Shown here one piece after another: positions 307-39,501 of a stretch of 64,000 bases of DNA. Position 1 is the stretch's first letter, and every line of letters starts with the position of its first letter. Below the pieces are notes generated by a model that saw only the letters and a list, made by a program, of their open reading frames with translations, made no database searches and was not told the origin of the DNA. Both the position numbers and the translations under genes were made by a program. The stretch is from Clostridia bacterium. GTDB lineage: Bacteria > Bacillota > Clostridia > Christensenellales > Borkfalkiaceae. Location of the stretch: NCBI GenBank assembly GCA_017468085.1, contig JAFUJR010000006.1, forward strand, positions 1-64,000. Reading direction: 5' to 3'.

Positions 307-2073
307 ATGAAAAAATTATACAGAGTATTGGCGCTGACCATGGCGCTTGCAACATGCGGAACGGTAATGGCAGGTTGTACGGGCGGCAAAACCAGCAAAA
401 AGGACGAAATCATCGTAGAGCCTTTTTCGGCAAGCGGATTTGGTATTCAGTGGCTCAAAGACCTCGCTAAGGATTGGATGGCGGAAAACCCCGGCTATAC
501 GGTTAAGGTAAAAGAAAATTCCACCTATCTTTCAGGTACGCAGCTTGCGCAAATCGAGGCGGGTACGACGACTACGGACGTATATTTCGGTGGTTATCCC
601 AACTATTCCAGCGGCTTTTATAAGGGCTATTTTGAAGACCTTTCGGATATGCTTACCATGAAGCCCGACGGCGAGGACGGTTTGACGGTCCAAGAAAAAA
701 TCGTTAACTTCGATAATTGGAAAAAGGTTGCCGGCAAAGTATCCTATGACGAAGCAACGGACGAATTTTCGTACAGCGGTTGCTATATGCTGCCGCATAG
801 TACCACGTTATCCGGTCTTGTTTACGACCACGACGAGTTTTTGAAGAACGGCTGGCTGACTTACGCAGAAAATACTGCGGAGGTAAAAGCGGATTTAGCG
901 GCGCAAGGCATCACCTTTGAGGAATCGGAGTTGCCTGCGCAAAACCCCCTTGATGAACCGGAGACCAGACTGGTTTTCAAGTCGTCTACAGGCATTACCA
1001 ATTACGAATCGGACGAATATATTCTTACGGCGGGAAAGGACGGCAAATACGGCACGTACGACGACGGTCAGCCTCAAACGATGGCGGAATTTGACGAGAT
1101 GGTAGAAGCCATCGTTTCAGCGGGTAAAGTGCCTTTCGTTTATTCGACGGAAAATGAATACGTTACCGAACTTGCAAACGCTTACGTTGTACAATACGCG
1201 GGTTTGGACGCTTACGACGCTTTGACGGCGTTTGACAGCAACGGAAAAGAAATCACCTTGCAAGACGGTTCGTCCGTGGTCATCGATTGGAGTAACGGTT
1301 ACCGTGCGCAGAGCCTAAAAGGGATTGAGGACGCGGTTTCTTTTATTAATGATAACTTCTTGAATTCCGATTATTTTACGACGGGCACGGGAGTACAGGA
1401 CGCGCAGGATAAATTTATTGCAGGTGGGCTTGGTACGAGCACGTACATAGCGATGCTTATGGAAGGAAACTGGTTCGAGCTGGAAGCTATGGAAACGTTG
1501 AAGGCGGCGGCGAGGCGTAATCCCCAAAAGGGCTACGGAAAGGTGGATTACCGTATGATGCTCATGCCCGAAATCGAAGGTCAAAAGGGTATTGACGGCA
1601 ACGGAAACGGCACGGTTTTCCCCGCAGTAGAAGCAGGCGCGATTGTTGTTCGTACGCAAAAATATCCCGAAAAACTCGAAGCGATCAAATCCTTCATTTT
1701 GTATACCTTGACAGACGAAGCTTTGTCTGAAACGACGAAGAAGACGGGCTTGGTGCGCGGTTATAAATACGATTTGACGGCTGAACAAATTGCGGAAATG
1801 ACGCCCTATCAAAGGACCTGTTACCAAATTTATCAAGACACGGAAAATATCAAGGTCATCACGCCCACGACGGATATGCTCCGCGCTCCTTTCCCTTACG
1901 CGGCAATCGGTTATACGTCGGACGTAGGTATGTTGCCGTGCCGCGGCGTACAATCCATTCTTAATTCGTTGAAGGGCGGTAAGTCGGTTGCGGAAGTAGT
2001 AGACGGAATTGCCAACAACTATAACGAGGGGAAGTGGAACGGCTTCTTAACTTCTATAAAAAACAATCTATAA
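307..2073 (+). CDS. Sugar ABC transporter substrate-binding lipoprotein (family 1 type)
   Basis: 588 residues. A type II signal peptide ends in the lipobox M-A-G-C with the lipidated Cys at residue 24, so the mature protein sits on the outer face of the membrane. The rest looks like a large cluster-B/family-1 solute-binding protein for oligosaccharides, longer than the usual 420-450 residues. A loop at about 243-256 reads KDGKYGTYDDG, with acidic residues spaced as in a calcium-binding loop. The second binding protein in the window (30583) carries an equivalent loop. GAAAGGAG lies just before the ATG. Two permease genes follow after 13 bases, fixing its role as the capture component of an importer. 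The ligand cannot be told from sequence; the neighbouring enzymes suggest a complex oligosaccharide. Confidence 0.88.
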   Translation: MKKLYRVLALTMALATCGTVMAGCTGGKTSKKDEIIVEPFSASGFGIQWLKDLAKDWMAENPGYTVKVKENSTYLSGTQLAQIEAGTTTTDVYFGGYPNYSSGFYKGYFEDLSDMLTMKPDGEDGLTVQEKIVNFDNWKKVAGKVSYDEATDEFSYSGCYMLPHSTTLSGLVYDHDEFLKNGWLTYAENTAEVKADLAAQGITFEESELPAQNPLDEPETRLVFKSSTGITNYESDEYILTAGKDGKYGTYDDGQPQTMAEFDEMVEAIVSAGKVPFVYSTENEYVTELANAYVVQYAGLDAYDALTAFDSNGKEITLQDGSSVVIDWSNGYRAQSLKGIEDAVSFINDNFLNSDYFTTGTGVQDAQDKFIAGGLGTSTYIAMLMEGNWFELEAMETLKAAARRNPQKGYGKVDYRMMLMPEIEGQKGIDGNGNGTVFPAVEAGAIVVRTQKYPEKLEAIKSFILYTLTDEALSETTKKTGLVRGYKYDLTAEQIAEMTPYQRTCYQIYQDTENIKVITPTTDMLRAPFPYAAIGYTSDVGMLPCRGVQSILNSLKGGKSVAEVVDGIANNYNEGKWNGFLTSIKNNL

Positions 2074-2086
2074 ACAAGGTGATAAG

Positions 2087-3031
2087 ATGGTACAACGCAA
2101 AAAAGTATCCTCACAAAAAAAAGTAAGAACGCTTTTTATCTTAAGCTTTATCACGTATCCGCTGATACTGTTTTTGATATTTTACGTGCTTGTAAATTTA
2201 AACTCGATACGTATGGCGTTCTTCACCGTCAAAATGGACGGGGCGTGGGTTTTTGCAAAATTAGATAATTTTAAGCAATTTATAAGCGATTTGACGGAAA
2301 GCGGAAACGTCGTCGGCGTCAGCATGCTCAATTCGTTGAAAATGTATATTATCAATTTGGCGATTTGTATGCCGTTATATTTGATTTTTTCGTATATGCT
2401 TTTCAAACAGTGCTTTTTACATAAAGGCATTAGAGTTATCGTAATGTTGCCGCAAATTATATCCGGTTTCGTTATCTGTATGCTCTTCAAAAACTTTATT
2501 TCGGGCGACGAGGCACCCATCAGCGTATTGTTTCAAAAATTAGGGATATTTCTTGATGAAAACGGAAAGCCGGTTGATTTGCTCTATCACGAGGCTTATG
2601 CGTTCGGCACGACGATTTTTTATGGGATTTGGCTGTCGTTTGGTATGAGCTTGATCGTCTATCCCAACGCCATGAAAGAAATTTCTTCGGAGATTATCGA
2701 AAGCGCGCAATTGGACGGCGTTTCCAATATGTTCCAGGAAATGTTCTATATCATTTTACCTCTTATATTCCCGACGCTCAGCACCTTTTTAATCACAGGC
2801 TTGGCGGGTATCTTCACCGAAGCGGGTTCCATCCTTGCATTTTACGACACGGACGCGCCTAGCTTCGTAAGCAATATGGGTTATTATTACGCGCAGTTGG
2901 TTTTAAATGCTAACGAAGCTACGTATCCCATGCTTTCGGCTGGCGGTTTGCTGATGACGTTGGTCGTTGCGCCCGTCGTCATTTTGGTACGGCACTTGCT
3001 TGAAAAATACGGTCCGTCTACGGAGGCATAA
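2087..3031 (+). CDS. Sugar ABC transporter permease, MalF/UgpA-like
   Basis: 314 residues with an N-terminal membrane segment starting near residue 15 and about six hydrophobic segments in all. The EAA-type cytoplasmic loop that docks the ATPase is at about residues 200-222 (core ESAQLDG, then LPLIFPT). The protein ends in the KYGP tail typical of the MalF-like partner. The start is the ATG preceded by AAGGTGAT. It is the first of two permeases directly downstream of the binding lipoprotein. No ATPase gene is present in the cluster. In Bacillota such carbohydrate importers are usually energised by a shared MsmX-type ATPase, so that partner is inferred to lie elsewhere. Confidence 0.9.
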   Translation: MVQRKKVSSQKKVRTLFILSFITYPLILFLIFYVLVNLNSIRMAFFTVKMDGAWVFAKLDNFKQFISDLTESGNVVGVSMLNSLKMYIINLAICMPLYLIFSYMLFKQCFLHKGIRVIVMLPQIISGFVICMLFKNFISGDEAPISVLFQKLGIFLDENGKPVDLLYHEAYAFGTTIFYGIWLSFGMSLIVYPNAMKEISSEIIESAQLDGVSNMFQEMFYIILPLIFPTLSTFLITGLAGIFTEAGSILAFYDTDAPSFVSNMGYYYAQLVLNANEATYPMLSAGGLLMTLVVAPVVILVRHLLEKYGPSTEA

Positions 3032-3032
3032 T

Positions 3033-3947
3033 ATGAAGAAAGTAATAAAAAATTTAGAAAAGCCCCGTGTTTTGGACGTCGTCAGCAAAGTTTTGATTGC
3101 CATTATGTGGGTGTTGTTGGTCGTCTATTGTATCACGTTGTTCATTTTGCCTATATGGATGATTCTTACCTCCTTTAAAGACCAAATCGAATACGTGTCC
3201 AATCGGTTCGGTTTCCCCGAAATTCCGTATTTTGAAAACTATAAAAATATATACCACCATTTACAAATTCCCGCGGACGAGGACGGATTTATAAAATACA
3301 ATATATTCCACATGCTTGGTTTCAGTGTTCTTTACTCGGTTGGCTCGTCGTTCGTAAACGTATTTTTCACCACTTGCATGGCGTACGTGTTATCCAAATA
3401 TAGATTTTTCGGCAGAAACTTTATATACAACCTCGGTATCGTGGTAATGATCGTGCCGATTATCGGTTCTTTGCCGTCGGCGATGGTGATCCGGTCTACG
3501 CTTCTGGTATACGACAATATGTTTTTACATATCATTACGTCGCCGTCCACCTGCTTTTCGGGAATGAATTTCCTCCTTCTATACGGGGCGTTTAAATCTC
3601 TGCCTTGGGATTATGCAGAGGCGGTGTTTATAGACGGCGGCAACGATTTCACGGCATTTTTCAGGATGTATCTGCCCATGATATTGCCTACGGACGTCGT
3701 TATTTTCGTCTTGTCCTTCTTAGGCTCGTGGAACGATTATCAAACGTTTATGCTTTGGTTGCCCAGCACGCCGAACTTGGCGTACGGATTGTATCAATTC
3801 CAAGGACAATCCAGAGCGTTGCTGCATGCGAGTACGGTGGAAATTATGGCGGGGTTCAGCATCGTTATCGTGCCTACAGTCCTTTTGTACGTTTGCTCGC
3901 AAAAGCTTATTCTTTCTAAATTTACAGTAGGGGGATTAAAGGGTTAA
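3033..3947 (+). CDS. Sugar ABC transporter permease, MalG/UgpE-like
   Basis: 304 residues with six predicted membrane segments. The EAA loop is at about 194-213 (core EAVFIDGG followed by LPMILPT) and the C-terminus ends KFTVGGLKG, the usual ending of MalG-like subunits. The ATG at 3033 was chosen over an upstream in-frame ATG at 2967, because GGAGG lies just ahead of it and the longer form would overlap the preceding gene by 65 bases. It pairs with the 2087 permease. Its stop codon overlaps the next ATG by one base, which suggests translational coupling to the large surface lipoprotein. Confidence 0.9.
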   Translation: MKKVIKNLEKPRVLDVVSKVLIAIMWVLLVVYCITLFILPIWMILTSFKDQIEYVSNRFGFPEIPYFENYKNIYHHLQIPADEDGFIKYNIFHMLGFSVLYSVGSSFVNVFFTTCMAYVLSKYRFFGRNFIYNLGIVVMIVPIIGSLPSAMVIRSTLLVYDNMFLHIITSPSTCFSGMNFLLLYGAFKSLPWDYAEAVFIDGGNDFTAFFRMYLPMILPTDVVIFVLSFLGSWNDYQTFMLWLPSTPNLAYGLYQFQGQSRALLHASTVEIMAGFSIVIVPTVLLYVCSQKLILSKFTVGGLKG

Positions 3948-6900
3948 TGAAAAAGAAAAAGATAATTTTCGCCCTCTTGGCGTTATGCTCCACCGTGCTC
4001 TTTGGCGTGGGCGTAGCGGCGTGCGATAACGGCGAAAAACAAAATAACAGCCAAAACCAACAAAGCAGTGAAATCGATTTGACGGGTGAAAAGAAGATTG
4101 TTTCTAATATTGAAGAAACGGTTAAAGTGTATTCCGACATCGACGTCAGTAAATGCTACGGCGTATGCAACGGCTATAAATTTGCGTGCAAGGCGGAAAT
4201 CACGACGCCGAGCGGTAAAATCGTTACAACCGATTCGCAGTATACCGTGGAAGAGGAGGGGGAACATAAAATCAAACTTACCTCCACTATCGGCGGCGAA
4301 AAAGTAGAGGAGGAGTTTACGACCCGCGCAGAGGGATGCTCTGCGCAAGGCTTGTTTACTTGCTCCAACTCTGAATTTTTGCAGGATAATAAAGAAATAG
4401 CGGAAAACGTAATTGCGGACCTTCGCACGGGCGCGCAATTTCAGTTGGATACGACGAATTCCTCCCTTGCGTTTAAACCGGTTGTGGACTTAAAAGACTT
4501 GAAAGGGGAATCTCTCTCGTCGCTGATTGAATTTTCGACGAATGTGAATTCTACCAATTTACCCGATTTGCGCGGGCTTCGCATCGTCCTCACGGACGTT
4601 TACGACAGCACCAACCGCGTCGGCGTTACTTTTACGATGAGCTCCACCATTCTTTGGTTGGATAAAGAGCACGGGATAGAGGAAGGAACGGCGTCTGCAC
4701 CATCCATGAAAGCGGAGTGGGACGGCTATGCCGTAGGCGATTCGTCTACGTACACGCCCGAGCCGGGCAAGACCTACGCGTTTAGCAGCTCGTTTATGCC
4801 CCAATATCACCTTCCGTCTGAAAAAGGGCTTACCTACTTGCCGATTCGTTTATATTACGATATCGACGACAACGCGATTTATACGGAACGTAAGGAAGGG
4901 CTTTTGCTCATTTACGATTTGGATAACCCTATGGATAGCTATGGCGATTTTAAAGGATTCACGACGGGAGAAGTGTACGTCAGTATAGAATGCACGGGGA
5001 CGAGCGGCGATATCGTCTTTACGAAAATCGGCGATTATACCTTCGGGGACGTAACGGCGGATACCTATAAAAAGGCGAATACGTCGATGCTCTTGAACGG
5101 CTATGATTTTGAAAATATGCTGACGGGCGTCGTTGGATATGCGTATCCGTTGCCGCAGGCATTATACGCCGACGCGGTAACGACAAAGCTGTATAAGTTG
5201 GACGGCGAAAAGGAAACGGAAATTGCTTTTGATGGTACGTTTACGCCAAACGAGGCGGGCAGGTACGCGATTACTTGCACTTCGTTGAACGAATACGGCT
5301 ATGAAACAAGCGTAAAAGGATATTTTGACGTGTTGTCCGAAGCGGTAGAAATTACGCCGCCGACGGTAGATTTACAAGCAAAATTATTGGACGTTTGGAA
5401 GGTCCCTACCCTTCAATTTGAGGGCGGCATAGGGGAACTTTCCTTGCGATATACCTTGCAAAAAGGGGAAACGAGCTACGACGTCCTGCCGGGCGACGCG
5501 TTCGCGTTGGATAAAAAGGGGGAAGAAGTCAAACTCGCGGTAACTGCCACGGACGCAATCGGGTATTCCCGTACCTTCACCTTCCCGCTTACCATCGACA
5601 GCAACGTGATGCGTTTTGAACTTCTGAACGAATTTGACAGCGTCAGCGTGAACGCGGGAACGGTTTTGACCGTACCCGATTACGTGGCGATTGATTATTC
5701 CAAAGAGGACGTATCTCAAAACAACGTAGAAATCACCATTCGCCGCGGCAAGACGCAAATTTTGTCCGTCGGGGACGAAATCGAAGTGCGTTCGGATAGC
5801 AACGTTTATTATTACGCGGGCGAAACGCTCTTAAAAACCTTCTCTATCCGCTGTTTACAAAGTTTTGTAGAGGGGGGCAAGGTGGAGGAACAGTTTACGT
5901 CTTCGTCGGGCGTCAGCCAAGTAAATACTTCCATCGTGGGGACGGTGTTTACTCTTTCCAACAACGACGCAACGATATTGATGCCGTACACCCTTTCTTC
6001 CAGCAGTTTGCATATACAGTTTTCGCTGTTTGACGATATGTTGGGCTCGTCGGTGTTGATTAGGCTGCGTTCTTTGTCGGGGCAGGAATTGCTTTACGAG
6101 CTGACGGGACTCGGCGCAGAGCCTACCTTGTATGTCAACGGTGAAAAGACTTACTGCAAAGTAAGCGTAGCTAAGTCGGTCTACAAGGGAACGGATATGC
6201 CCGAATACTTAAATCGCGAATATTATACCTATTCCTTTATCGTGGACGGCGCAAAGGCTACGCTGTACAACGGGGATGCCTTGCGTATTGCAACCATTGA
6301 TAAGTGGAACGACGGCTTGCTTTTCGACGGCTTTGATAGGGGCGCGGTACAGCTCTCGTTCGAGGTGCAGAACGCAAAAACGAACGGCGTATTCGTGCTT
6401 GGTAAGGTCTCTAATCAAGGCTTGACGTCCGTGCATTTGGGTAAGGGTGAAAAAATGGCGCCGATGATCGCTTTCGACGGGGCGTTCGGTTCTATGTCGG
6501 TAGAAAAAGATAGCGAAGTAGTTATCCCTACTGCGTACGTTTACGACGTGTTCGACCCGAAATCCAGCGCAACGCTGTCGATTATGTCGCCGAGCGGGGA
6601 GGATTTGCTTAAAAAAGCGCCTGCCGAGGAATATGTCTTTACGGCAAGCGAATACGGCATTTATTACGTTTCTTACGACGTGCGGGATTCTAAGGGGAAT
6701 ACGGACACGCTCAATTATTTGGTGGTCATCACTGATGACGTCGCGCCGACGTTGACGGTAAACGGGACGTATAAAACGGAGTATAAAGGCAAAGTATCGA
6801 TTTATTCTGCGACGGCTACGGACAACGTGGACGGGGAATTGAAGGTTACCATTTGGGTTGAAAAATCGGATATGACTACGCGTGAAGTGCAGGCAGGCGA

Positions 6901-7000
6901 AAAAGTTTCCTTGGAAAAGGGTAGTTACAAAATCGTTTATTATGCGATGGACGCAAACGGAAATTTTGCCGTACAGCGCTTTGAAATCCAGGTGAAATAA
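3947..7000 (+). CDS. Large exported lipoprotein with Ig-like domains
   Basis: 1017 residues. The signal peptide ends V-A-A-C, predicting lipidation at Cys26, followed by a short Asn/Gln/Ser-rich linker. The body is a chain of beta-sandwich domains. The C-terminal 100 residues have the pattern of bacterial Ig-like (DUF5011/HYR-type) domains, with DDVAPTLTV followed by A-T-D-N-V-D-G. No catalytic motif is visible. It is translationally coupled to the MalG-like permease and followed by a DUF4838 lipoprotein. The 1036-residue protein at 34360 has the same position in the second importer cluster and shares local patterns such as FTTGEVY, so the two look paralogous. A surface glycan-binding or presentation role is inferred from context only. 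Confidence 0.75.
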   Translation: MKKKKIIFALLALCSTVLFGVGVAACDNGEKQNNSQNQQSSEIDLTGEKKIVSNIEETVKVYSDIDVSKCYGVCNGYKFACKAEITTPSGKIVTTDSQYTVEEEGEHKIKLTSTIGGEKVEEEFTTRAEGCSAQGLFTCSNSEFLQDNKEIAENVIADLRTGAQFQLDTTNSSLAFKPVVDLKDLKGESLSSLIEFSTNVNSTNLPDLRGLRIVLTDVYDSTNRVGVTFTMSSTILWLDKEHGIEEGTASAPSMKAEWDGYAVGDSSTYTPEPGKTYAFSSSFMPQYHLPSEKGLTYLPIRLYYDIDDNAIYTERKEGLLLIYDLDNPMDSYGDFKGFTTGEVYVSIECTGTSGDIVFTKIGDYTFGDVTADTYKKANTSMLLNGYDFENMLTGVVGYAYPLPQALYADAVTTKLYKLDGEKETEIAFDGTFTPNEAGRYAITCTSLNEYGYETSVKGYFDVLSEAVEITPPTVDLQAKLLDVWKVPTLQFEGGIGELSLRYTLQKGETSYDVLPGDAFALDKKGEEVKLAVTATDAIGYSRTFTFPLTIDSNVMRFELLNEFDSVSVNAGTVLTVPDYVAIDYSKEDVSQNNVEITIRRGKTQILSVGDEIEVRSDSNVYYYAGETLLKTFSIRCLQSFVEGGKVEEQFTSSSGVSQVNTSIVGTVFTLSNNDATILMPYTLSSSSLHIQFSLFDDMLGSSVLIRLRSLSGQELLYELTGLGAEPTLYVNGEKTYCKVSVAKSVYKGTDMPEYLNREYYTYSFIVDGAKATLYNGDALRIATIDKWNDGLLFDGFDRGAVQLSFEVQNAKTNGVFVLGKVSNQGLTSVHLGKGEKMAPMIAFDGAFGSMSVEKDSEVVIPTAYVYDVFDPKSSATLSIMSPSGEDLLKKAPAEEYVFTASEYGIYYVSYDVRDSKGNTDTLNYLVVITDDVAPTLTVNGTYKTEYKGKVSIYSATATDNVDGELKVTIWVEKSDMTTREVQAGEKVSLEKGSYKIVYYAMDANGNFAVQRFEIQVK

Positions 7001-7011: not shown

Positions 7012-9051
7012 ATGAAGAAACGTAATTATATTGCATTGATTTTATCTCTGCTGATGACAAGCTCGTGCGCGCTTGCGTCGGGTTGTAAAGAAAACGCAGA
7101 CGTCCCCAAAAAAGAGACGGTGATTTGCGATATGCTGACGCAACCAACCGATTATACGGTGGTTATTCCGTCCGATTATACCAAGACGGAAGAATATTCG
7201 GCAAAGCAGATTTGCGCGTATTATCAAGAGATTACGGGCGAAAAAATGGAATACGTTGTGGATTCCCAAATGCTTTTGACGGAGGAAAGCACGTATGTTT
7301 CTTTGGGCGATACCTCCCTTTTTGAGCTTGCGGAAAAGGAACACGGCAAGGTCGATTTAAGCGAAACGACGTTGAATACGGACGGATTTTATATCTTTAC
7401 ACACGGGAAATCGGTGTTTATCAACGCCTTTAATGACCGCGGTATTATGTACGGCGCGTTTGAATTTATCGAAAACACGCTCGGCGTACGGTTTTTAACG
7501 GACGATTATACGCACGTGCCGAAATCGGATTCTATTCTTTTGAAAACGTACGATAAATCTTACGCCCCCTTGTTTAGACAAAGAACGTATTTGAATACGG
7601 CTGTGGATAAGGACGACGTGGAGTATACGGCGCATATGCGCTATAACACCGACTATTGCGAGATGCCCGATTATATGGGCGGTTCGACGCAATGGGCAAA
7701 CCTCGGCCCTTCGCACACCTCCTTTAATATCGTCAACCCCGACAATTACGTTACGGGCGAAACGGTTTCGGGTATGCCCGGCAGTATCGTTTTCCAAGAC
7801 GAATACAAGCACGTTTTTGCGCACACGGGCTCGGACGAAGACGCGGATACAATGTACATTGACGTCGGCGGCAGATACGAGGTGTTGGACCTTTGCTATT
7901 CGTCGGGCGTTAACGAGGACGGCACGATTTCGGATGAAGAAATCTCCGCAGTCAAGCTCTCTATCGAGGGGTTAAAAAAGAAGATTTTAGAAGATGAAGA
8001 AGCGGAATTCTTCATGTTCGGTCAGCAAGACCGTACTTACGGCTGTGCGTGCAACCGTTGTAAGGCGGTCAAGGAAAGCTATAAGGCGAGCGGCTTGATG
8101 ATTCGTTTTATCAACTGTGTTTCGGACGGTATTCGTGCGTGGATGCAGGAAGAAAATATCAACAGAAATATCAATTTCGTTATTTTCGCATATTCTTACA
8201 ATGAATATGCGCCCATCGACGAGGACGGGAAGCCGTTGAGTTCTACCGTCGTTCCACGCGACAACGTGTATATCCGTTACGCGCCTATTCACGGTATGCA
8301 ATATTATTCCCTGAACGACGAGCGTCAAGACAACGAAACGCGCGGTATTTACAGCGATTGGGGAAAATTGACGGATAATTTGATGGTGTGGACGTATCAC
8401 GCGTACTATGCGGAATATTTTTGGTATTTGCCCACGATACAGACGATGAAGGACACTTTGCTTCTTTTGAAAGAGGTGGGTACGGAATACGAATTTGCGC
8501 AGGGTTGTTATGAGGATACGGCCATTTACGAGCAGTGGATCGAGTCCTATGTTTTCTCAAAATTGTGTTGGAATATCGAGGCGGACGTCGAAAATTTGCG
8601 CGATGAATTCTTGTTCTATTACTTTGGCGCAGACGCTTTTGAGTACGTTGCGGAATTCCATAACAGAGTGGAGGATAGATATAGCTTAATGTCCGCCGAC
8701 CCTAACGTCGTTATCGACTCTTTGGACATTTTTACGGCGGATTATTGGCAATATTCTTTTATGAACGGCTTATGCGGCTTGTTTGACGACGCAATCGCGG
8801 CGACGAGGGCAAATCCTGCTTTGACGGCGGTGCAGAAGCAACGCTACGTGCAGAACTTGGAAAAGGCGAAGCTCACGCCCATGTATATGCGCTTGTATAA
8901 CGCGAATTCGTATGTGGAATTGACGAAAGAGGACGTTATTTCTATGGCGCAGGAGTGGATTGATTTAGCGGAAAGCTACGGCGTAACCCGTTACGGCGAG
9001 GGTAGTAACCGCTTGCTCAACGTCATCAAGGAAAAATATAATTTAAGCTAA
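7012..9051 (+). CDS. DUF4838 domain lipoprotein
   Basis: 679 residues. The lipobox L-A-S-G-C predicts lipidation at Cys25. Residues of about 40-170 resemble the alpha/beta domain found before GH67/GH20-type barrels (pattern Y-V-S-L-G-D-T, then D-G-F-Y-I and Y-G-A-F-E-F-I-E-N-T-L-G). The central part is DUF4838, a family of uncharacterised, probably barrel-fold proteins common in glycan-degrading bacteria. A Cys motif, C345-A-C347-N-R-C350, follows the run FGQQDRTYG and recurs in the other two DUF4838 proteins of this window. A glycoside hydrolase-like role is plausible but unproven. AAGGAGGGG precedes the ATG. It closes the first five-gene cassette. Confidence 0.82.
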   Translation: MKKRNYIALILSLLMTSSCALASGCKENADVPKKETVICDMLTQPTDYTVVIPSDYTKTEEYSAKQICAYYQEITGEKMEYVVDSQMLLTEESTYVSLGDTSLFELAEKEHGKVDLSETTLNTDGFYIFTHGKSVFINAFNDRGIMYGAFEFIENTLGVRFLTDDYTHVPKSDSILLKTYDKSYAPLFRQRTYLNTAVDKDDVEYTAHMRYNTDYCEMPDYMGGSTQWANLGPSHTSFNIVNPDNYVTGETVSGMPGSIVFQDEYKHVFAHTGSDEDADTMYIDVGGRYEVLDLCYSSGVNEDGTISDEEISAVKLSIEGLKKKILEDEEAEFFMFGQQDRTYGCACNRCKAVKESYKASGLMIRFINCVSDGIRAWMQEENINRNINFVIFAYSYNEYAPIDEDGKPLSSTVVPRDNVYIRYAPIHGMQYYSLNDERQDNETRGIYSDWGKLTDNLMVWTYHAYYAEYFWYLPTIQTMKDTLLLLKEVGTEYEFAQGCYEDTAIYEQWIESYVFSKLCWNIEADVENLRDEFLFYYFGADAFEYVAEFHNRVEDRYSLMSADPNVVIDSLDIFTADYWQYSFMNGLCGLFDDAIAATRANPALTAVQKQRYVQNLEKAKLTPMYMRLYNANSYVELTKEDVISMAQEWIDLAESYGVTRYGEGSNRLLNVIKEKYNLS

Positions 9052-16042: not shown

Positions 16043-16867
16043 TTATCGTTTTTGGCAGGATTTTTTATATTCCATCGCCGTCATACCCGTGATGGCTTTA
16101 AATTTTCGACTGAAATAGTTGAGGTCGGAAAAGCCTACGCGGAGGGCGATTTCCTTGATGGGAACTTCTTCTTTTTCAAGGAGCGCTTTTGCATTTTGTA
16201 TTCGCGTTTCATTGATACATTCCACAACGCTTTTTTGGGCGTATTCTTTGAAGAAATGAGAAAAATAGGATACGCTCATATTAAAGTGTGCGGCAAGCTC
16301 AGGCACGGAAATATTTTCCGTGTAATTTTTTTCGATGTAATCGATGATGTGGTGGAAAGTATCCAACCGTTTGAATTGTTTTTTATAGTGTTCTTCGTCC
16401 AACACGTTTTTCACGTATCGCGCCGTCAATATGCCGAAAAATTCGTAGGCGAGTTTTTTATATTCGACAATGCTTTGAATGGTGCGCGGCTTCGAATATA
16501 CGGCAATCATCTCGTCCAATATTTTGGTGCAATCCTCGTCTACGATGACGTTTTGGAAGAGGGCGCACTCGTTGCCGATCAAGTTGTGGAAAAAGGTCGG
16601 ATCGAATTGAAAACAGTAAAATTCGGATTCGATTTGCGAAATGATACCCGTGTGCAATTCGTTGCCGTTAATAAGCACAATGGTGCCTTTGCGTACCTCG
16701 TGATGTTCCAAATTGCAGCCGGTTACGGCTTTGCCTTTGGTAAAATAAAGCAGTTCTAACGCTTCGTGCCAATGTATGCGCCCCATTGAAGAATGGCGGA
16801 CGAATTTTCGAATATAGATGGGGTTCTTTTTTAGGAAAAGCGGCTCGTATTCGTAATAAGTATCCAT
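16043..16867 (-). CDS. AraC family transcriptional regulator
   Basis: 274 residues. An N-terminal cupin-like sugar-sensing domain (about 1-150, with HWHEALELLYFTKG and the NGNELHTG turn) is followed by two helix-turn-helix units near 170-270. Motifs are ISVPELAAHFNMSVSYFSHFF and IKEIALRVGFSDLNYFSRKF. These match AraC/XylS regulators of sugar genes. GGAG precedes the ATG. It is transcribed divergently from the Gfo/Idh gene, and the 128 bases between them contain two palindromes that overlap the rightward promoter. Control of that gene is inferred. The inducer is not known. Confidence 0.92.
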   Translation of the reverse strand: MDTYYEYEPLFLKKNPIYIRKFVRHSSMGRIHWHEALELLYFTKGKAVTGCNLEHHEVRKGTIVLINGNELHTGIISQIESEFYCFQFDPTFFHNLIGNECALFQNVIVDEDCTKILDEMIAVYSKPRTIQSIVEYKKLAYEFFGILTARYVKNVLDEEHYKKQFKRLDTFHHIIDYIEKNYTENISVPELAAHFNMSVSYFSHFFKEYAQKSVVECINETRIQNAKALLEKEEVPIKEIALRVGFSDLNYFSRKFKAITGMTAMEYKKSCQKR

Positions 16868-22453: not shown

Positions 22454-22585
22454 ATGAAAAGCAGATACGAAGAAATTGAAATTCAAATTCTCACGTTCGC
22501 GGAAGAGGACATTTTAACAACGTCGCCTGGTCAAGTTGACGGCGACGAAACGAAATATCCCGTCCCCGGCGGTTGGTCTGAGTGA
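22454..22585 (+). CDS. Small TTSPG peptide, 43 residues
   Basis: ATG at 22454 with AGAGGT six to eleven bases upstream, TGA at 22583-22585. The peptide starts MKSRYEEIEIQI, has EEDILTTSPGQVDGD in the middle and ends GGWSE. It is strongly acidic and has no signal peptide or membrane segment. A second peptide with the same plan lies at 62536-62679 on the minus strand, also directly next to a surface-protein gene. Conservation of start, core and end between two distant loci argues for real genes. The stop lies two bases before the GAGGTGG that serves the following 2068-residue gene, so translation is probably coupled. Function unknown. Confidence 0.75.
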   Translation: MKSRYEEIEIQILTFAEEDILTTSPGQVDGDETKYPVPGGWSE

Positions 22586-22593
22586 GGTGGAAT

Positions 22594-32346: not shown

Positions 32347-32368
32347 GTGCCGAAAAACCTTTCGGCAC
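32347..32368 (+). other. Stem-loop between binding-protein and permease genes
   Basis: GTGCCGAAA (32347-32355) pairs perfectly with TTTCGGCAC (32360-32368) around AACC, with no T-run. Such hairpins after binding-protein genes commonly protect the upstream mRNA or trim transcription into the permeases, giving excess binding protein. That role here is inferred. Confidence 0.6.
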
Positions 32369-32400
32369 GGCGCGCTAAAAAGAACTCTGGGGGCTATTTT

Positions 32401-33363
32401 ATGGGAGCAAGTACAACTGCAAGCGGAAAGAAATTTCAAACGCGCAAGCAGAGAAGATTGGTTTTTTATATCTTGATGTTTGCGTTGCCGCTTTTGCAAT
32501 TTGCAATTTTTTATCTTTACGTAAACTTCAATTCGTTTATAATCGCGTTCCAAGAAAGAACAAAAGATTTTGAAATCGTTGCCACGGGCGACAATTTCGC
32601 GGAAGCGTTTAAATATTTTTTCAGTGCAAAGGGAGGGAGAATGTTATGGAATTCCCTGCAACTTTTGCTCTGTCAGCTTTTGATAGCAACGCCGCTTGGC
32701 TTGCTGTTCAGTTATTACATCGCAAAGGGGAAAAAGGGCGCGGGGTTTTTTAGAGTTATGCTCTATCTTCCGCAGGTGCTTTCCATGGTCGTTTTGGCGG
32801 CGCTTTTCCAAGTTATCGTCAACGAGGTGTATCCCATTCTTGCAAAGGATTGGTTTTCCGCCGAAAACGCAGGGCCGTTGCTCTCGTCGAGTACGAACTC
32901 CGTTTCTGTGAAGTTTTACACGGCGCTCGTGTTTACGCTGTGGTTTTCTTTCGGTGCAAACGTCCTTATTTATACGGGCGCAATGAGCGGTATCGACCAA
33001 TCCATCGTCGAATCAGCCTCGCTCGACGGCGTAACGACCTTCCAAGAATTTTGGTACATTTACGTGCCCATCATCTTCCCGACGATCACGACCTTCCTTT
33101 TGACGAGTATCGCGGGGATATTCAACAACCAAATGAGTTTGCACCTCTTCTTCGGTAACGACGGAAACGTGCCCGTATTCGCGTATTATTTCTACCGCAT
33201 GGCGGCGAAAAACACCTATGCGAGCCAAGATATTTACGCCGATTCCGGTTATATGACGTTGGGCGAGCTTGCCGCGCTCGGTTTGATTGCGACGGCGATT
33301 TTGGTGCCGGTTACCTTGTTGGTGAAGAAGGCGCTGGAAAAGTACGGACCAAGGGTTGATTAA
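32401..33363 (+). CDS. Sugar ABC transporter permease, MalF/UgpA-like, second copy
   Basis: 320 residues. The ATG at 32401 is preceded by a G-rich site (CTGGGGG). The open frame back to 32347 runs through the stem-loop and is not used. Six membrane segments are expected, the first at about 20-45. The EAA loop is at about 200-222 (ESASLDG, then VPIIFPT). The C-terminus ends KYGPRVD, like its counterpart at 2087. It forms the channel with the 33376 permease. No ATPase is encoded nearby. Confidence 0.9.
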   Translation: MGASTTASGKKFQTRKQRRLVFYILMFALPLLQFAIFYLYVNFNSFIIAFQERTKDFEIVATGDNFAEAFKYFFSAKGGRMLWNSLQLLLCQLLIATPLGLLFSYYIAKGKKGAGFFRVMLYLPQVLSMVVLAALFQVIVNEVYPILAKDWFSAENAGPLLSSSTNSVSVKFYTALVFTLWFSFGANVLIYTGAMSGIDQSIVESASLDGVTTFQEFWYIYVPIIFPTITTFLLTSIAGIFNNQMSLHLFFGNDGNVPVFAYYFYRMAAKNTYASQDIYADSGYMTLGELAALGLIATAILVPVTLLVKKALEKYGPRVD

Positions 33364-33375: not shown

Positions 33376-34335
33376 ATGAAGAAAACGAAAACAAAATTTT
33401 CAGTTACCTCCCTTATTATCGCGGTGATGCTTTCGCTTTATGCAATTTCTTTAATCCTTTTGATGGGCTGGGGGATCATCAGCTCCTTTAAATCGGACGA
33501 CGACTTTGTGTTTAACGGAAATATTCTCGGACTGCCCGACTTAAACGCGTGGGGCGCAAAAGAGGCGTTGGCGTTCGGTAATTATCGGAAGATACTCTTT
33601 GGCGCGAGCTTCAAATTTGAGTCTATTGACGCAAGCTATTACTCGGTATTTTTCGGATATATCGAAAATACGCCTGCAAAAACCTTTGCGTTTGGGGATT
33701 TCATTTTTAATTCCCTTATGTACTCGGTTATCTGCTCGTTTGTTCATGCGTTCGTCGCGTTTACCTGCGCTTATCTTTGCGCGAAGTATAAATTCCGTTT
33801 TAGCGAAATTATATACGTCGTCATGCTTGTCGTTATGGCGATTCCCATCGTCGGCTCATCGCCGTCTATGATGTCCGTTTTGCGCGACTTGGGTATTTAC
33901 GATACGATATTCTCTATGGTAGCCCTCAACCTTAATTTTACGGGCGTATATTTCTTCGTGTTCTACGCGCATTTCAAAGGCTTGTCGGATACGTATATGG
34001 AAGCGGCGGAAATCGACGGCGCGTCGCAAATCGGTATCTTTTTTAGGATTATCTTCCCGCTCTGTGCAAAGGTGTTCTTCACGGTATTCCTGTTGCAATT
34101 TATTCAGACTTGGAACGATTATCAAACGCCGCTGTTGTATTACCCCAACCATCCCACCTTATCCTACGCAGTATTCAAAATGATGCGCAACACGGAAGGG
34201 GGCGGTATGGAAGACCAAAACGTACCCACCCGCGTTGCAGGATGTATGGTGCTTGCCGTACCTATTTTCACGATGTTCGTAGCTTGTAATAAGCTGCTTA
34301 TGGGCAACCTGACGATGGGCGGCTTGAAAGAATAA
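33376..34335 (+). CDS. Sugar ABC transporter permease, MalG/UgpE-like, second copy
   Basis: 319 residues with six membrane segments and an EAA loop at about 205-226 (EAAEIDGA, then IIFPL). The C-terminus ends MGGLKE, as in MalG-like subunits. AAGGGGGAA precedes the ATG. It is slightly longer than the copy at 3033 because of an extended periplasm-side segment after the first membrane helix. It partners with the 32401 permease and the lipoprotein at 30583. Confidence 0.9.
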   Translation: MKKTKTKFSVTSLIIAVMLSLYAISLILLMGWGIISSFKSDDDFVFNGNILGLPDLNAWGAKEALAFGNYRKILFGASFKFESIDASYYSVFFGYIENTPAKTFAFGDFIFNSLMYSVICSFVHAFVAFTCAYLCAKYKFRFSEIIYVVMLVVMAIPIVGSSPSMMSVLRDLGIYDTIFSMVALNLNFTGVYFFVFYAHFKGLSDTYMEAAEIDGASQIGIFFRIIFPLCAKVFFTVFLLQFIQTWNDYQTPLLYYPNHPTLSYAVFKMMRNTEGGGMEDQNVPTRVAGCMVLAVPIFTMFVACNKLLMGNLTMGGLKE

Positions 34336-34359
34336 TCGCTTTTATTAAGAGGTAAGAAA

Positions 34360-37300
34360 ATGACGAAAAAAATCAAAATATTGTGCTTAACGCTGTGCGG
34401 CGCCGCCGTTTTGGGACTTGGCGCATTTGCAACGGTAAACATGCAAAATGCGGGGGCGGAAACGGAGCTTATCGTACCCGAAGAATACGTGTTGGCGGAG
34501 GAGTATCTTTACGGCGATACGTTGATCGTTCCCACGCCGTCGAGCGTAAGTATTAAATCAGGGAACACGGAAACTGCGGCGGTCAGCGTCGTTTTGCGCG
34601 GACCTGACGGCGTAGCAAAGGGCGAAGGCAGTTATACCTTGGATAAAATGGGGTATTACGAGCTTACGTATTACAACGCAAACGGGATTTCGGCGACGCA
34701 GACCTTTGTCGTTAACAAAAATAACTACGGGCTTGGCGAAGGCGCTTCGGCAACCTACGTAACCGATTTGCTCGGCGAAACGGGAAAAACGGGCATTGAC
34801 GTTACGTTGAAGGACGGCAGCTCGTTTACCTTCAACAAAACCGTCAACTTAAACGATTTTGCGGGGCAAGAGCTGGAGGTTTGCAAAATCTTCCCGATGT
34901 TTAGAACAAGCGAAAACGAAAACCCCGACGCGTCCACCGTTTCCGTCAAGGTCGTGGATTGCTACGACCCTACCAAATTCGTAGAATTCTATATTTGGTG
35001 CGGCGAGGCGGGTCAAGGCGTTTATTATATGGGCGCTGGCGCAAGCACGCAAAACTTTACGGGCTTGGAGCAAAATTTCAATCGTCCCCACGAAATGACG
35101 GAAGAATACAACGGCGAATTTTATAAAATTCACCGCCCGCAACGCTATCAATCCAAGACGGCTTGGGGTACGGGTATGGGTTGCAGGGATAATGCAACTA
35201 TGCTCGGGCAAGACGGTATGACCCTTTTCTGGGATTTGGAAAATCATCAAATCAAGGCAAAGAGCAACTCGATCCGCTTGATCACCGACATCGACGCCCC
35301 CGAAATTTACGGCTTGAACGTGTTGGATTACGATACTTTCTTCACGACGGGCGAAGTATATTTGAATATTGAGGTCTATAACTACACGAAGTCCGCCTTC
35401 AATTTCGGCGTGGAAAAAATCTTCGGCATGAGCGGCGAAGAATTGCAAAACAGCAAGATCGTCGACGCAAAAGCGCCCGATGTTTCCGTTGGCATCGAAG
35501 CAACGGAGAACAACACGATTTATCTGCAAAAGGGTGAACCCGTCGTCTTACCTACGATAGAAAGAGTTATCGACGCCAACTACTACGGCAAAACGTATTT
35601 GGAAGTATACCGTAATTACGGCAAATACGGGCAAGCGCTGTTAAACGTGGAAAACGGCGTATTCGTGCCCGATTTGGCGGGCAACTACACGGCGGTATAT
35701 TCGGCTGTGGACGGTTACGGTAACGAGGGGAAATTCCTGCTCGATATGGTGGTCGTGGACGAACAGAATATCGTTTACACGCCCACGGCGTTGAATACGA
35801 TGGTTGCCGCGCAGGCCAACGTCATTCCTTATATTCAAGCAAGCGGACTTAATAAGGCTGTTCAAACGACGGTTGTTGTAACTGCGCCCAACGGCGAAGA
35901 AACGGAAGTCGCGGATAACGGCGTGGACGGCTATACGTATATTCCTACGCATGTAGGCGAGTATACGATCAGCTATATTTTCAAAGACAACGTCTACGAA
36001 GAAACGTACGCCTACACCGTAGCGTGCGAGGATAAAAACGCGGCGATTTTTCAAAAAGCGTTCGCATTCCCGTCCTATTTCATCAAAGGCGCTTCCTATA
36101 CGATTGCGCCCGTAGCGGCTTATACGGCAGGGGACGGTCAGTTTAAAGAAAACAAGGCGAGCGTGAGCGTTTCGGTGGACGGCGGCAGTTATCAGCCTCT
36201 TACCGACGCGCAAATGGAAGAATATAAAGTGGAAGCAAATTCAAGCATTCGCTTTAAGGCAAGCTACGGCGAAAGTTTTATCGAATCGGATTTGTATTCC
36301 GTCGTGGACGTCGGTTACGGCAAGAAGACGTCGGAAAAGCAATACTTGAATTATTGGCAGGGGAATTATTCGTCTGCAACGATGTTGTCGGAGGGCGCGC
36401 AATACGAGTTCGACGGCGACGGAACGCTGCAGTTTGTCAACGTGGTTTCCAGCGCGAACTTCAATGCGAAATTTGCTTTGCAAGCGCAATCGGCGGAAAA
36501 GGTAACCTTTACCTTGCGCGACGCACGCGACCCTTCGGGCAGTTACGTTACGTATACCTATCAAACGCAAAGCGCCACCAACGTAACCTTGCACGTTCAG
36601 CAATACGAGGATAACAAGCTTGTTTTGGATAGAAATATTTTGACCAAGCATAAGGCGTTGGCGGGCGAATTTACGTTTGCATATTCTTCGCTCGGTATGA
36701 CTTTAGACGACTTGCTTGTGGAAGGGGTAAAAGCGTTTAACGAGGACAACGCGTTGTTGGAAATTGTAATTTCCGGCGCGACGTCTGCCGCTTCGATCAC
36801 CGTTTCGCAGTTGAATTATCAAACCTTCTCCAAGTCCGTTCGTGAAAGCATACCGCAAATCGTATTCCAAACGCCCAACGGCGCGTTGGAAAGAAACGCT
36901 GTATACGAAATTTCCCCTTGTTACGGGAGCTCGGTGTTTAGTACGGTGTTGGCAAAGGACGTGAAATTGACGGTAGTTGCGCCCGACGGTAAGGTGGCGA
37001 AGTCGGTGGATAACGTAACCTTAGAAAACGTAGCGGCTGACAAAATTTATCAGTTAAAACTTGCGCAAGTCGGTCAATACCGTATCGTCTATGAGGCGAC
37101 TTGCCTTGTATCTACAAGAAACGGACAAGAAGGGTTGTCGAATAGCGATTATTATATCCTCAACGTAAGCGAAGGGGTCGCGCCTACCGTTAAGTTCAAG
37201 GACGGCTCTAACTCGCAAACGGTTGTCAACGTCAAGGTGGGCAGCACGCATGATGTAAAAGCTTTTACCGTATCCGACAACGTAACGGCAAAAGATAACA

Positions 37301-37470
37301 TCAAGGTGTACACGATGATTATGGCTAAGGACTTCACTTTGGAAGAGGACGGCTACAACGTGCGTTCGTACACCTTCAAAAACGTCGGCGAATTTATCGT
37401 CTACGTAGTTGCATATGACGAGCTCGGCAACAGCTCTTCCGTCTACTATAACGTAGTCGTTACCCGATAA
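34360..37470 (+). CDS. Large exported Ig-like protein, second copy
   Basis: 1036 residues. A signal peptide of about 35 residues (hydrophobic core LCLTLCGAAVLGLGAF) ends near Q-N-A-G-A. There is no lipobox Cys, unlike the 3947 protein. The body is a series of beta-sandwich domains with recurrent GxYxVxYxAxDxxGN-like closing strands (for example AVYSAVDGYGNEG, and VVAYDELGNSSS near the C-terminus) typical of Ig-like modules. It occupies the same slot as the 1017-residue protein of the first cassette, and both contain FTTGEVY followed by a strand. No catalytic motif is seen. Glycan binding at the surface is inferred. Confidence 0.72.
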   Translation: MTKKIKILCLTLCGAAVLGLGAFATVNMQNAGAETELIVPEEYVLAEEYLYGDTLIVPTPSSVSIKSGNTETAAVSVVLRGPDGVAKGEGSYTLDKMGYYELTYYNANGISATQTFVVNKNNYGLGEGASATYVTDLLGETGKTGIDVTLKDGSSFTFNKTVNLNDFAGQELEVCKIFPMFRTSENENPDASTVSVKVVDCYDPTKFVEFYIWCGEAGQGVYYMGAGASTQNFTGLEQNFNRPHEMTEEYNGEFYKIHRPQRYQSKTAWGTGMGCRDNATMLGQDGMTLFWDLENHQIKAKSNSIRLITDIDAPEIYGLNVLDYDTFFTTGEVYLNIEVYNYTKSAFNFGVEKIFGMSGEELQNSKIVDAKAPDVSVGIEATENNTIYLQKGEPVVLPTIERVIDANYYGKTYLEVYRNYGKYGQALLNVENGVFVPDLAGNYTAVYSAVDGYGNEGKFLLDMVVVDEQNIVYTPTALNTMVAAQANVIPYIQASGLNKAVQTTVVVTAPNGEETEVADNGVDGYTYIPTHVGEYTISYIFKDNVYEETYAYTVACEDKNAAIFQKAFAFPSYFIKGASYTIAPVAAYTAGDGQFKENKASVSVSVDGGSYQPLTDAQMEEYKVEANSSIRFKASYGESFIESDLYSVVDVGYGKKTSEKQYLNYWQGNYSSATMLSEGAQYEFDGDGTLQFVNVVSSANFNAKFALQAQSAEKVTFTLRDARDPSGSYVTYTYQTQSATNVTLHVQQYEDNKLVLDRNILTKHKALAGEFTFAYSSLGMTLDDLLVEGVKAFNEDNALLEIVISGATSAASITVSQLNYQTFSKSVRESIPQIVFQTPNGALERNAVYEISPCYGSSVFSTVLAKDVKLTVVAPDGKVAKSVDNVTLENVAADKIYQLKLAQVGQYRIVYEATCLVSTRNGQEGLSNSDYYILNVSEGVAPTVKFKDGSNSQTVVNVKVGSTHDVKAFTVSDNVTAKDNIKVYTMIMAKDFTLEEDGYNVRSYTFKNVGEFIVYVVAYDELGNSSSVYYNVVVTR

Positions 37471-37482
37471 GGAGGCATAAGT

Positions 37483-39501
37483 ATGAAAAAACGTATAATT
37501 TCATGGATACTCAGCGCGCTTTGCGTATGCACTTTCTTGGGAGGCTGCGGCAAAGAGGACGAGCGAGTAGCGGAAAGAGAAAAATACAGATACACCGACG
37601 GCGTTCACGATTTAACCGCGCCCGAAACGGACGATTATATGGTGGAAAACGGCAAAACGGAGTATAAGCTCCTTTTGCCCTCTGTCTCGGATTCTAACCT
37701 TATCGTTGCCGAAGCGGAACTCAAATACTTTTTCGAGGAAGCAACGGGCATTAAATTGACTACGGTAACGGAGCCGGAGGAGGGCTTACCTCATACGGCG
37801 GGCGGGAAATATATTTCCCTCGGCGCAACGAAGATGTTGCAATCCGCAAACGTAGATTTAAAAGAGGACGTCATCGGTTCGCAAGGCGTTCGTATCATTA
37901 CGAAGGATAAGACGGTGTACGTTGCCGGCGCAACCTCGAACGGCGCGTTGAACGCTGTGTATACCTTCTTAAATCTTATGTTCGATTACGAGCAGTTCGC
38001 CTACGATTGCTTTACGATTACCGAAACGAGAAACGTCAAGCTCCGTGATTTCAACGTAGTGGACGTGCCCGATTTTGAAATGCGCACCAGCCCTGCCGCG
38101 TTGACCGACCAAAACCCCGATAATCTGCAATACCGTTTCCGCACGCGCACGTACAGCGAGTATTTCTTGCCCGTAGGCGACACCGACAACGGTGCAAGCG
38201 AGCATATTATTCACAACACCTCCAACGTAATTCCTCGCGAAGCGCCTACTTCGCAGGAAAAGTGGTTTTCCGACCAGAGCGGTCAAGGCGCGGACAATAC
38301 GCAGCTTTGCTATACGGCGCACGGCGACGTGGAGGCTTACGAGGCGTTGGTATCGCGCGCGGCGGAGGTTATTTCCCGTTCCTTGGTGAAATATACGCCC
38401 GATAAATACCCTCTGCGCAACATCGTTACGTTTACGCAAGAGGACAACGCCAATACGATGTGTAATTGCGAATGGTGCTCCAAGGCAAAGGAAAAATACG
38501 GCACGCAGTCGGCGCTTGCGCTGATTATGGCAAACAATATCCGCGCAAAACTTGAAGAATGGATGAATATGCCCGAAAACGCGGCGTATAAGCGCGATCT
38601 TACCCTTGTATTCTTTGCTTATGCGGCGTTCGTAGAAGCCCCCGCGCATTACGATGAAGAAGTAGGGAAATACGTCGTCAATCACCCCGACTTGGAAATG
38701 CGCGACGACGTCGGCGTATACTACGCGATTTCCAGCGGTTTAAGCTATCAAAAGAATATCTACGACGAAGCGAGCAAGGAGGGGCTTGAAAACTCCTTAA
38801 AATGGTTTGATATTGCTCCCACCGTACTGCTGTGGACGTACGACGCAAACTTCGGTAACTTCTTATTCAGAACGGCAGGTACGAATTTCTACGATACCGA
38901 CGCATATCAATTCTTTGCGGCAGGCGGTGCGGAAGTTATCTTTAAGCAATCCGCAATGCCCGGCGCAAACGTAACCTCTTTCCAGATGTTGGATATTTAT
39001 TTGGATTCCAAAATGCAATGGGATACCACGCAGGATATTCACGAATTGACGCAAAGATGGTTTAAGGCGATGTTTAAGGACGCGGCGGACGTGATGTACG
39101 ATTTGTACGTGCAGGAAAATAATTGGGCGATCATCGTCGCGCACGAAACTAAAAAAATTACGCAAACGGGTATCATTAACTACGCAATCAGCCGCGAATA
39201 TTGGCAATACGAAATGTTAAAAAGTTGGTTGGATAGTATTGACAAAGCAAGAGAACTTGTGGTAAAATATGAAACAATTGACCCCGAATTGCATAAAGTC
39301 TTAAAAGAACATATCGATATTGAATGGGTATGCCCCGCATATTATATGCTTGCTTATAACGAGGATAGCTTGCCCAACGACGTGTACAATCAAATGGTTA
39401 TGTACTTTAAGACGGATATTTCAAGCTTAAAAGAATTCCGCTTTGCGGAAAGATCCCCCTCGACAATCGGTACTTGGGCGGCGAGCTTGTCTTTGCGATA
39501 A
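37483..39501 (+). CDS. DUF4838 domain lipoprotein, second copy
   Basis: 672 residues. The lipobox L-G-G-C gives lipidation at Cys22. A GH67/GH20b-like N-terminal domain at about 55-200 (YISLGATKML, GVRIITKDKTVYVAG) leads into DUF4838 with the Cys motif C327-N-C329-E-W-C332 and VFFAYAAFVEAP. It resembles the C-terminal half of the 2068-residue fusion more closely than the 7012 copy: both have VPDFEM/SPDFEM, FFAY and QLCYTA segments. AAGGAGGC precedes the ATG. It ends the second five-gene cassette. Catalysis has not been shown for the family as far as I know. Confidence 0.82.
   Translation: MKKRIISWILSALCVCTFLGGCGKEDERVAEREKYRYTDGVHDLTAPETDDYMVENGKTEYKLLLPSVSDSNLIVAEAELKYFFEEATGIKLTTVTEPEEGLPHTAGGKYISLGATKMLQSANVDLKEDVIGSQGVRIITKDKTVYVAGATSNGALNAVYTFLNLMFDYEQFAYDCFTITETRNVKLRDFNVVDVPDFEMRTSPAALTDQNPDNLQYRFRTRTYSEYFLPVGDTDNGASEHIIHNTSNVIPREAPTSQEKWFSDQSGQGADNTQLCYTAHGDVEAYEALVSRAAEVISRSLVKYTPDKYPLRNIVTFTQEDNANTMCNCEWCSKAKEKYGTQSALALIMANNIRAKLEEWMNMPENAAYKRDLTLVFFAYAAFVEAPAHYDEEVGKYVVNHPDLEMRDDVGVYYAISSGLSYQKNIYDEASKEGLENSLKWFDIAPTVLLWTYDANFGNFLFRTAGTNFYDTDAYQFFAAGGAEVIFKQSAMPGANVTSFQMLDIYLDSKMQWDTTQDIHELTQRWFKAMFKDAADVMYDLYVQENNWAIIVAHETKKITQTGIINYAISREYWQYEMLKSWLDSIDKARELVVKYETIDPELHKVLKEHIDIEWVCPAYYMLAYNEDSLPNDVYNQMVMYFKTDISSLKEFRFAERSPSTIGTWAASLSLR

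Follow-up and report, generated by a model that had tools for sequence, protein, structure and literature searches.

Why does a Clostridia genome carry, within one stretch of DNA, the same run of five genes twice, with the genes of a sugar importer placed directly ahead of those for two large exported proteins? The stretch, hereafter the window, is the first 64,000 nucleotides of contig JAFUJR010000006.1, and in each copy the genes encode, in order, a sugar-type substrate-binding lipoprotein (SBP), two permeases of the LplB/MalF and LplC/MalG types (B and C), an exported protein with immunoglobulin-like domains (IG) and a protein carrying the Pfam domain of unknown function DUF4838. An earlier reading of the sequence alone (the sequence-only reading) had suggested that the exported proteins are working parts of the transporter. 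We think it probable that the cassette is a conserved capture, cleavage and import module for glycans, part of a polysaccharide-utilisation locus of monoderm (Gram-positive) type, and that glycans are probably caught, cut and imported at a single place on the surface of uncultured Clostridia-related gut bacteria. What can be read from the DNA is the gene order, its conservation, a largely joint descent, and the export signals that the SBP and the majority of IG and DUF4838 proteins carry.

Both copies lie on the forward strand. Copy 1 (307-9051) comprises genes for the SBP (307..2073, 588 aa), B (2087..3031, 314 aa), C (3033..3947, 304 aa), IG (3947..7000, 1017 aa, with the lipobox-like motif VAAC) and a DUF4838 protein with a GH67N-like N-terminal domain (7012..9051, 679 aa). 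Copy 2 (30583-39501) comprises the SBP (30583..32322, 579 aa), B (32347..33363, 338 aa), C (33376..34335, 319 aa), IG (34360..37470, 1036 aa, with a hydrophobic leader lacking a lipobox) and DUF4838 (37483..39501, 672 aa). The order and lengths that the sequence-only reading had given are thus confirmed from the open frames, as is the overlap it had seen in copy 1, where the stop codon of C (TAA, 3945-3947) and the start codon of IG (ATG, 3947-3949) have one base in common. The start of copy 1 C at ATG 3033 was taken from the sequence, the Pfam scan having begun at 3066.

Direct BLASTP between the copies (single-comparison E values) gave clear matches for the permeases (E 2e-44 and 4e-43) and DUF4838 (6e-21), and weak ones for IG (2e-5) and the SBP (7e-5). 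Profiles made without either copy's own clade recovered all ten proteins at E <= 1.8e-82: for SBP, B, C, IG and DUF4838 in turn, E was 1.8e-82, 4.1e-92, 1.7e-82, 5.9e-112 and 4.3e-107 in copy 1, and 2.6e-113, 6.8e-101, 1.5e-104, 1.9e-166 and 6.3e-180 in copy 2. Reversed and shuffled controls (one reversal and five shuffles per protein) were absent from all ten hit lists, each of which extended to E 100. We therefore regard the copies as homologous and not as a mere coincidence of lengths; chance likeness is ruled out by the same profiles.

The cassette is further repeated in the genome, an assembly of 2.06 Mb in 62 contigs (about 82% complete, 5% contamination). Across 19 stretches examined around permease and DUF4838 matches, there are six instances of the exact SBP-B-C-IG-DUF4838 order: two in the window and one each on contigs C19, C44, C58 and C59 (loci L039, L050, L051 and L048; C and L numbers are our labels), the IG of L048 being recognised by alignment and domain profiles only. 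Several further permease pairs adjoin different large lipoproteins. DUF4838 was found at ten loci, six of them inside cassettes; the idea that it is always linked to permeases is ruled out by the other four, three of which are frames cut by a contig start. Permease matches score identically between contigs C55 and C56 and between C23 and C29, and gene lengths agree too for C55 and C56, which suggests that these contigs are redundant in the assembly.

To see how widely the arrangement is kept, we turned to relatives. Among 151 genomes of the same family, an IG profile matched 86, from 11 of 18 genera (best E < 1e-20 in 68), with up to five candidates scored per genome, or up to four in another search. 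IG and DUF4838 occurred together in 71 genomes, IG only in 15, DUF4838 only in three and neither in 62. Among the matches listed, at least 93 of 150 DUF4838 genes had IG directly upstream and at least 87 of 150 IG genes had DUF4838 downstream. We then inspected up to 20 kb around each of 60 IG matches, hand-picked down the ranking from the 145 listed outside the own genome, and found the complete five-gene order at 54. The six exceptions comprise three loci cut by contig ends (L102, L132, L147), one in full order with its IG frame split (L139), one whose IG is shorter and preceded by an additional gene (L129) and another without either permease (L144). The genes are tightly packed, with median gaps along the five-gene order of 21, 11, 21 and 12 bases in 60 cassettes, for gene starts picked by rule. 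L097 and L140-L143 contain additional large proteins whose IG-type matches are weaker, those of L140-L143 lying directly upstream of the SBP gene.

In 15 stretches from other families of the order (L191 overlapping L190), 11 strong IG genes (>=446 bits) were found in two families. The full order surrounds nine of these; the other two stand in tandem in L190, with DUF4838 and without a transporter. Of 523 loci with related C permeases, 80 named ones were kept, and IG together with DUF4838 was present in just three (L202-L204), all Clostridia metagenome bins: the complete order is seen in the goat cecum and reindeer bins, and C-IG-DUF4838, at a contig start, in the sheep colon bin. Another of the 80, L216, has a weak IG match (42 bits). 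A search of 348 genomes across the phylum gave no full-length IG outside the own genome, just short generic Ig matches; at most two candidates were scored per genome in the rows shown, so that absence across the phylum is weakly supported. The fixed linkage proposed by the sequence-only reading therefore holds at 54 of 60 loci in the family and at nine of 11 strong matches in two others. That reading had named IG and DUF4838 genes mostly unlinked from the permeases as an outcome that would refute it, and the survey found the linkage mostly kept.

The same survey showed that the five genes, right as far as they go, are not the whole set. In 51 of 58 cassettes examined, DUF4838 is closely followed, on the same strand, by a gene encoding 250 aa or more, and in 39 of these 51, copy 2 among them, that gene belongs to one family, which we call S6. 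The S6 gene of copy 2 (39532..41433, forward strand) had been overlooked by the sequence-only reading; it encodes a lipoprotein bearing Big_2 domains, which also occur in the eight S6 members scanned. The remaining genes in this position form a second group (7/51, six with another DUF4838 domain) or are of other kinds (5/51). In copy 1 and its relative L094 an unrelated 464-aa protein stands where S6 would be expected; that of the window (9148-10542) has no Pfam family, and the homologue in L094 is of the same length. In the other families S6 follows DUF4838 in eight of ten distinct strong-IG loci, the exceptions being L194, which ends there, and L197. S6 and DUF4838 can also be joined in one chain. 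Among 88 S6-type and 98 DUF4838-type frames there are five such fusions, in L054, L092, L098 and L202 and in the window (22582..28800, forward strand, 2072 aa), where three S6-type modules within residues 176-1314 precede a DUF4838 region at 1398-2015 matched by PF16126. A stand-alone S6-type protein of 1277 aa lies just before this fusion (18532..22365, forward strand; S6 profile E 7.9e-57, three module matches, Big_2). Because L190 has IG-DUF4838-S6 in tandem without a transporter, the exported set has the appearance of a separate unit that in most cases goes with the importer.

Another way to view the linkage is through descent. We built five gene trees over 69 cassettes (71 were taken and two dropped for a short gene), and distance correlations between genes were 0.66-0.84, whereas 999 permutations gave no more than 0.28. 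The genome's own six cassettes are not a single clade. Copy 1 falls with L094 and with L197, the latter from another family; copy 2 falls with L092, L093 and L202; and L039 joins L089-L091. Agreement of this kind might arise from species relatedness as its sole source. When cassette genes were swapped within genomes (31 cassettes, 13 genomes, 499 swaps), mean correlations fell to 0.30-0.40 and the observed value was never reached in any of the ten pairings, which rules that source out, two pairings being close (IG-SBP, best swap 0.82 against 0.83 observed; IG-B, 0.64 against 0.66). The congruent trees that the sequence-only reading named as support for transfer as one unit are thus found in part: the five trees agree on 23 of 66 splits and swaps never match, whereas the other splits differ in at least one tree. 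We conclude from these trees that the cassette genes have largely been inherited and duplicated together, with transfer of the set between lineages likely.

The importer half of the cassette has familiar parts. All 69 SBPs have a hydrophobic leader with a lipobox-like motif (by simple pattern match, as for the export signals given below), and a profile built from six of the cassette proteins finds family-1 sugar SBPs in the PDB (best E 8.3e-21), while Pfam assigned no family to the two window SBPs. Residues 216-229 of the SBP (copy 2 numbering) form a loop rich in Asp and Gly that is conserved in 36 sequences, with G216, D218, G219, D225-G227 and P229 invariant or nearly so; to the eye it looks like a putative calcium site. 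Pfam BPD_transp_1 matches both permeases of copy 2 (B, E 6.4e-16; C, E 3e-16) and those of copy 1 with 22.2 bits for B, under the 26.4 cut-off, and 32.7 bits for C. In 60 C permeases the EAA loop has E209, A210 and A211 nearly invariant and D214 and G215 invariant. The cassettes thus have the sugar SBP and the two permeases with an EAA loop of a CUT1/MalFG-type importer. Pfam scans of the window cassettes found no ATPase subunit. The genome has two TOBE_2 ATPase genes, one of which (C23:130730) is far from every permease among the matches listed, which fits a shared ATPase. The Bacillus subtilis CUT1 importers LplABC and YtcQ-YteP-YtcP have SBPs and permeases of like kinds and sizes, and they too depend on a distant shared ATPase, as proposed here; to our knowledge neither comes with a trio of exported proteins.

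The IG protein has the domain order Ig0-JR1-Ig1-Ig2-Ig3-JR2-Ig4-Ig5, the same in the six own copies, with Ig0 undetected in L050; the name JR and the segment boundaries were assigned in this analysis. JR1 is related to JR2 (hhalign probability 98.2, E 3e-14), and the own-genome stretches examined held no JR match at E <= 0.01 beyond the six IG proteins. Weak JR matches (E 0.006) occur in the tandem-repeat lipoproteins that, in L205 (10979-14505), follow the transporter in place of IG and DUF4838. Searches of the PDB with IG gave mainly Ig-type matches. Among 69 IG proteins a lipobox-like motif was present in 16, a hydrophobic leader alone in 47 and neither in six; a pattern script found no LPxTG motif and no C-terminal hydrophobic stretch in any of them.

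The DUF4838 protein is matched by PF16126 in 59 of 59 scanned cassette proteins at E <= 0.01, both window copies scoring above the cut-off (copy 1, E 1.4e-34; copy 2, E 1.8e-21), and 59 of 69 have a leader with a lipobox-like motif. Its N-terminal domain, at the same threshold, is like GH67N (PF03648) in 25 of 59 and like GH20b (PF02838) in three of 59; for copy 1 the PF03648 match (E 5.3e-5) falls just under its cut-off. PDB matches are weak, the enzymes found being an alpha-glucuronidase (E 0.0005) and an O-GlcNAcase (E 0.02). The 69 sequences share a conserved core (D340 in 69, C295 in 67, H235 in 65, Y394 in 69, P401 in 69), a CxCxxC motif whose cysteines are each conserved in 66, and further aromatics (W450 in 68, W460 in 64, Y462 in 68).

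Setting these parts together, IG would serve as a surface scaffold on which the related, beta-rich JR1 and JR2 hold the glycan while the Ig domains act as spacers. DUF4838, with an N-terminal domain like those of GH67 and GH20 enzymes and a GH163 listing in one paper, would cut or grip the held glycan, and the S6 lipoprotein may contribute further binding. The released oligosaccharide would be carried by the SBP to the B-C permease pair, which would use an ATPase encoded elsewhere, and adjoining GH38, GH20C, GH130 and GH2 enzymes would complete the breakdown. The paralogous cassettes of one genome may serve different glycans.

The surroundings of the cassettes are consistent with such a role. 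After copy 1 come genes for GH38 (10546-12951) and GH20C (12957-14570); after copy 2 come GH130, a gene of phosphoglucomutase/phosphomannomutase type and GH2 enzymes. The glycosidase families assigned in the window by profile are GH38, GH20C, GH130, GH2, GH36 and rhamnosidase. Two AraC-family regulator genes lie on the reverse strand, one between the copies (16043..16867; Pfam HTH_18 and AraC_binding) and one downstream of the enzyme genes of copy 2 (50283..51113; Pfam). AraC-type helix-turn-helix models match 27 of 160 neighbouring proteins scanned, beside diverse glycosidases, and neighbours of other cassettes include GH31, GH36, GH3, GH43, GH63-like, rhamnosidase and lacto-N-biose phosphorylase families. 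No NCBIfam model scored above its cut-off among nine window proteins scanned. The window opens (1-243), just before copy 1, with the 3' end of another protein gene whose start lies beyond it. As to the envelope, no Omp85 was found in the genome (82% complete), as against matches in seven of 14 control genomes, the SusC and SusD families not being searched, and sporulation genes adjoin the cassettes of relatives. Because of these two observations, a monoderm envelope is supported.

Several results weigh against a capture, cleavage and import module. Glycan binding by JR is a guess, since the modules have no Pfam model (two IG proteins scanned) and no PDB sequence match. In DUF4838 the usual two-acid hydrolase is not evident, because D340 (69/69) is the sole column at least 85% Asp/Glu in the presumed barrel region; E619, beyond that region, is Glu in 63 of 69 and Ala in copy 1. 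The sets also come apart at some loci. L190 (G674:C46) has tandem IG-DUF4838-S6 units with no SBP or permease matched alongside, the cassette-type transporter of L205 is not accompanied by IG, and the weaker IG-type proteins of L198-L201 (69-163 bits) have no DUF4838 alongside in the stretches examined, B and C preceding that of L200. The acidic residues bear on how the module would work, as DUF4838 and IG might both be non-catalytic grip proteins, with other secreted enzymes doing the cutting. Besides the lone acidic column, this draws on the conserved W450, W460, Y394 and Y462 and on C295 and the CxCxxC cysteines. Set against it, the likenesses of DUF4838 are to hydrolases, both in its N-terminal domain and in its weak PDB matches, and DUF4838 proteins from outside cassettes (as in L054 and L055) can be aligned across this motif as well, which gives no indication of residue loss in the cassette type. 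We consider the grip-only arrangement possible, though less likely than not.

A similar standing, that of a tentative possibility, would go to a more specific proposal in which DUF4838 is a GH163-like endo-glycosidase that frees parts of N-glycans for import and trimming by GH38, GH20C and GH130. The enzymes following both copies fit this, including the phosphohexomutase-type gene after copy 2, as do GH130 and GH20C at two of 58 neighbours each in a second neighbour scan. A Polaribacter DUF4838 protein appears under GH163 in one table row of PMC9870897, and PMC10154615 describes a GH163 enzyme active on complex N-glycans. The model would be the NgtS-P1-P2 pathway of Streptococcus pneumoniae, which in the available portion of PMC5215778 likewise has a sugar SBP with two permeases and an endo-enzyme acting before import, and includes GH38 and GH20C, whose counterparts here stand beside copy 1 only. 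In that portion the genes for the importer (SP_0090-0092), for EndoD (GH85, SP_0498) and of the enzyme locus (SP_2141-2146) are found at separate places, with no mention of IG, DUF4838 or S6. General Pfam scans of the window proteins showed no GH85, no genome search aimed at it having been made, and no NgtS chain is present among the 50 PDB sequences that the six-SBP profile matched at E <= 1. The other cassettes adjoin diverse other glycosidase families, so that a single substrate cannot fit all of them. We consider somewhat more doubtful the idea of a Gram-positive utilisome, in which SBP, IG, DUF4838 and S6 would dock as a stable complex onto the two permeases. Tight linkage, co-inherited paralogous sets and the S6-DUF4838 fusions speak for it, and there is precedent in the four-component complexes on SusCD in Bacteroides (excerpt of PMC7618045), whereas exported units without permeases exist (L190, and L144 with SBP-IG-DUF4838-S6) and a common substrate alone could explain the co-inheritance. 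The fuller version, an Ig-scaffolded utilisome over ABC permeases, duplicated into substrate-specific sets as the monoderm counterpart of SusCD machines, seems equally doubtful. At the far end, the exported proteins could be adhesins or wall proteins that hitch-hike beside a transporter with no common task. The last Ig modules do resemble the serine-rich adhesin for platelets (PDB 4m03, E 2.7e-9), yet the order is kept in three families and paralogous sets are co-inherited, where chance linkage would have broken, and we think this very improbable.

The capture, cleavage and import module thus retains part of what the sequence-only reading proposed. Linkage and inheritance as a unit agree with surface proteins that are parts of the transporter, while L190 and L144 have them without permeases, and DUF4838 resembles a glycosidase fold and not a transporter subunit. 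Likewise, a Gram-positive counterpart of glycan-capture complexes is consistent with the monoderm envelope; the Omp85 search of the incomplete genome gave no sign of an outer membrane of the SusCD kind. Bacteroidetes SusCD utilisomes, as described in part of PMC7618045, bring dedicated surface binders, a surface enzyme and a transporter together for one glycan, as the cassette may; they use outer-membrane SusCD, whereas the cassette has a predicted cytoplasmic-membrane ABC importer.

Closer to hand are Gram-positive polysaccharide utilisation loci (gpPULs), defined in the accessible text of PMC5320581 by at least one polysaccharide-degrading enzyme, a carbohydrate transport system and a transcriptional regulator. 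To judge by family assignments, the window loci have all three, in their glycosidase families, an SBP with permeases twice over, and AraC genes. Like the gpPULs of Roseburia, Eubacterium rectale and Blautia, cassette loci hold an ABC importer, glycosidases and a regulator together, in cells that seem to have no outer membrane; unlike them, they have a fixed exported set (IG, DUF4838 and mostly S6) directly after the permeases. According to the part of a Blautia paper available to us (PMC10318527), gpPULs are without surface glycan-binding proteins, a role often filled by the carbohydrate-binding modules of enzymes, and a stand-alone, co-inherited surface set would depart from gpPULs for this reason. 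No description of the gene set was found among the open literature matches listed, most subscription papers lying outside that coverage. We conclude that the cassette would class as a gpPUL by the published definition, and that the stand-alone, co-inherited surface set is what appears to be new. Little is known of the way in which Gram-positive gut bacteria keep large glycans at their surface before import. A set whose order persists across three families, and which has been multiplied in individual genomes, offers IG, DUF4838 and S6 as definite candidates for binding and cutting, and two nameless protein types and an uncharacterised Pfam domain thereby gain a common, testable task.

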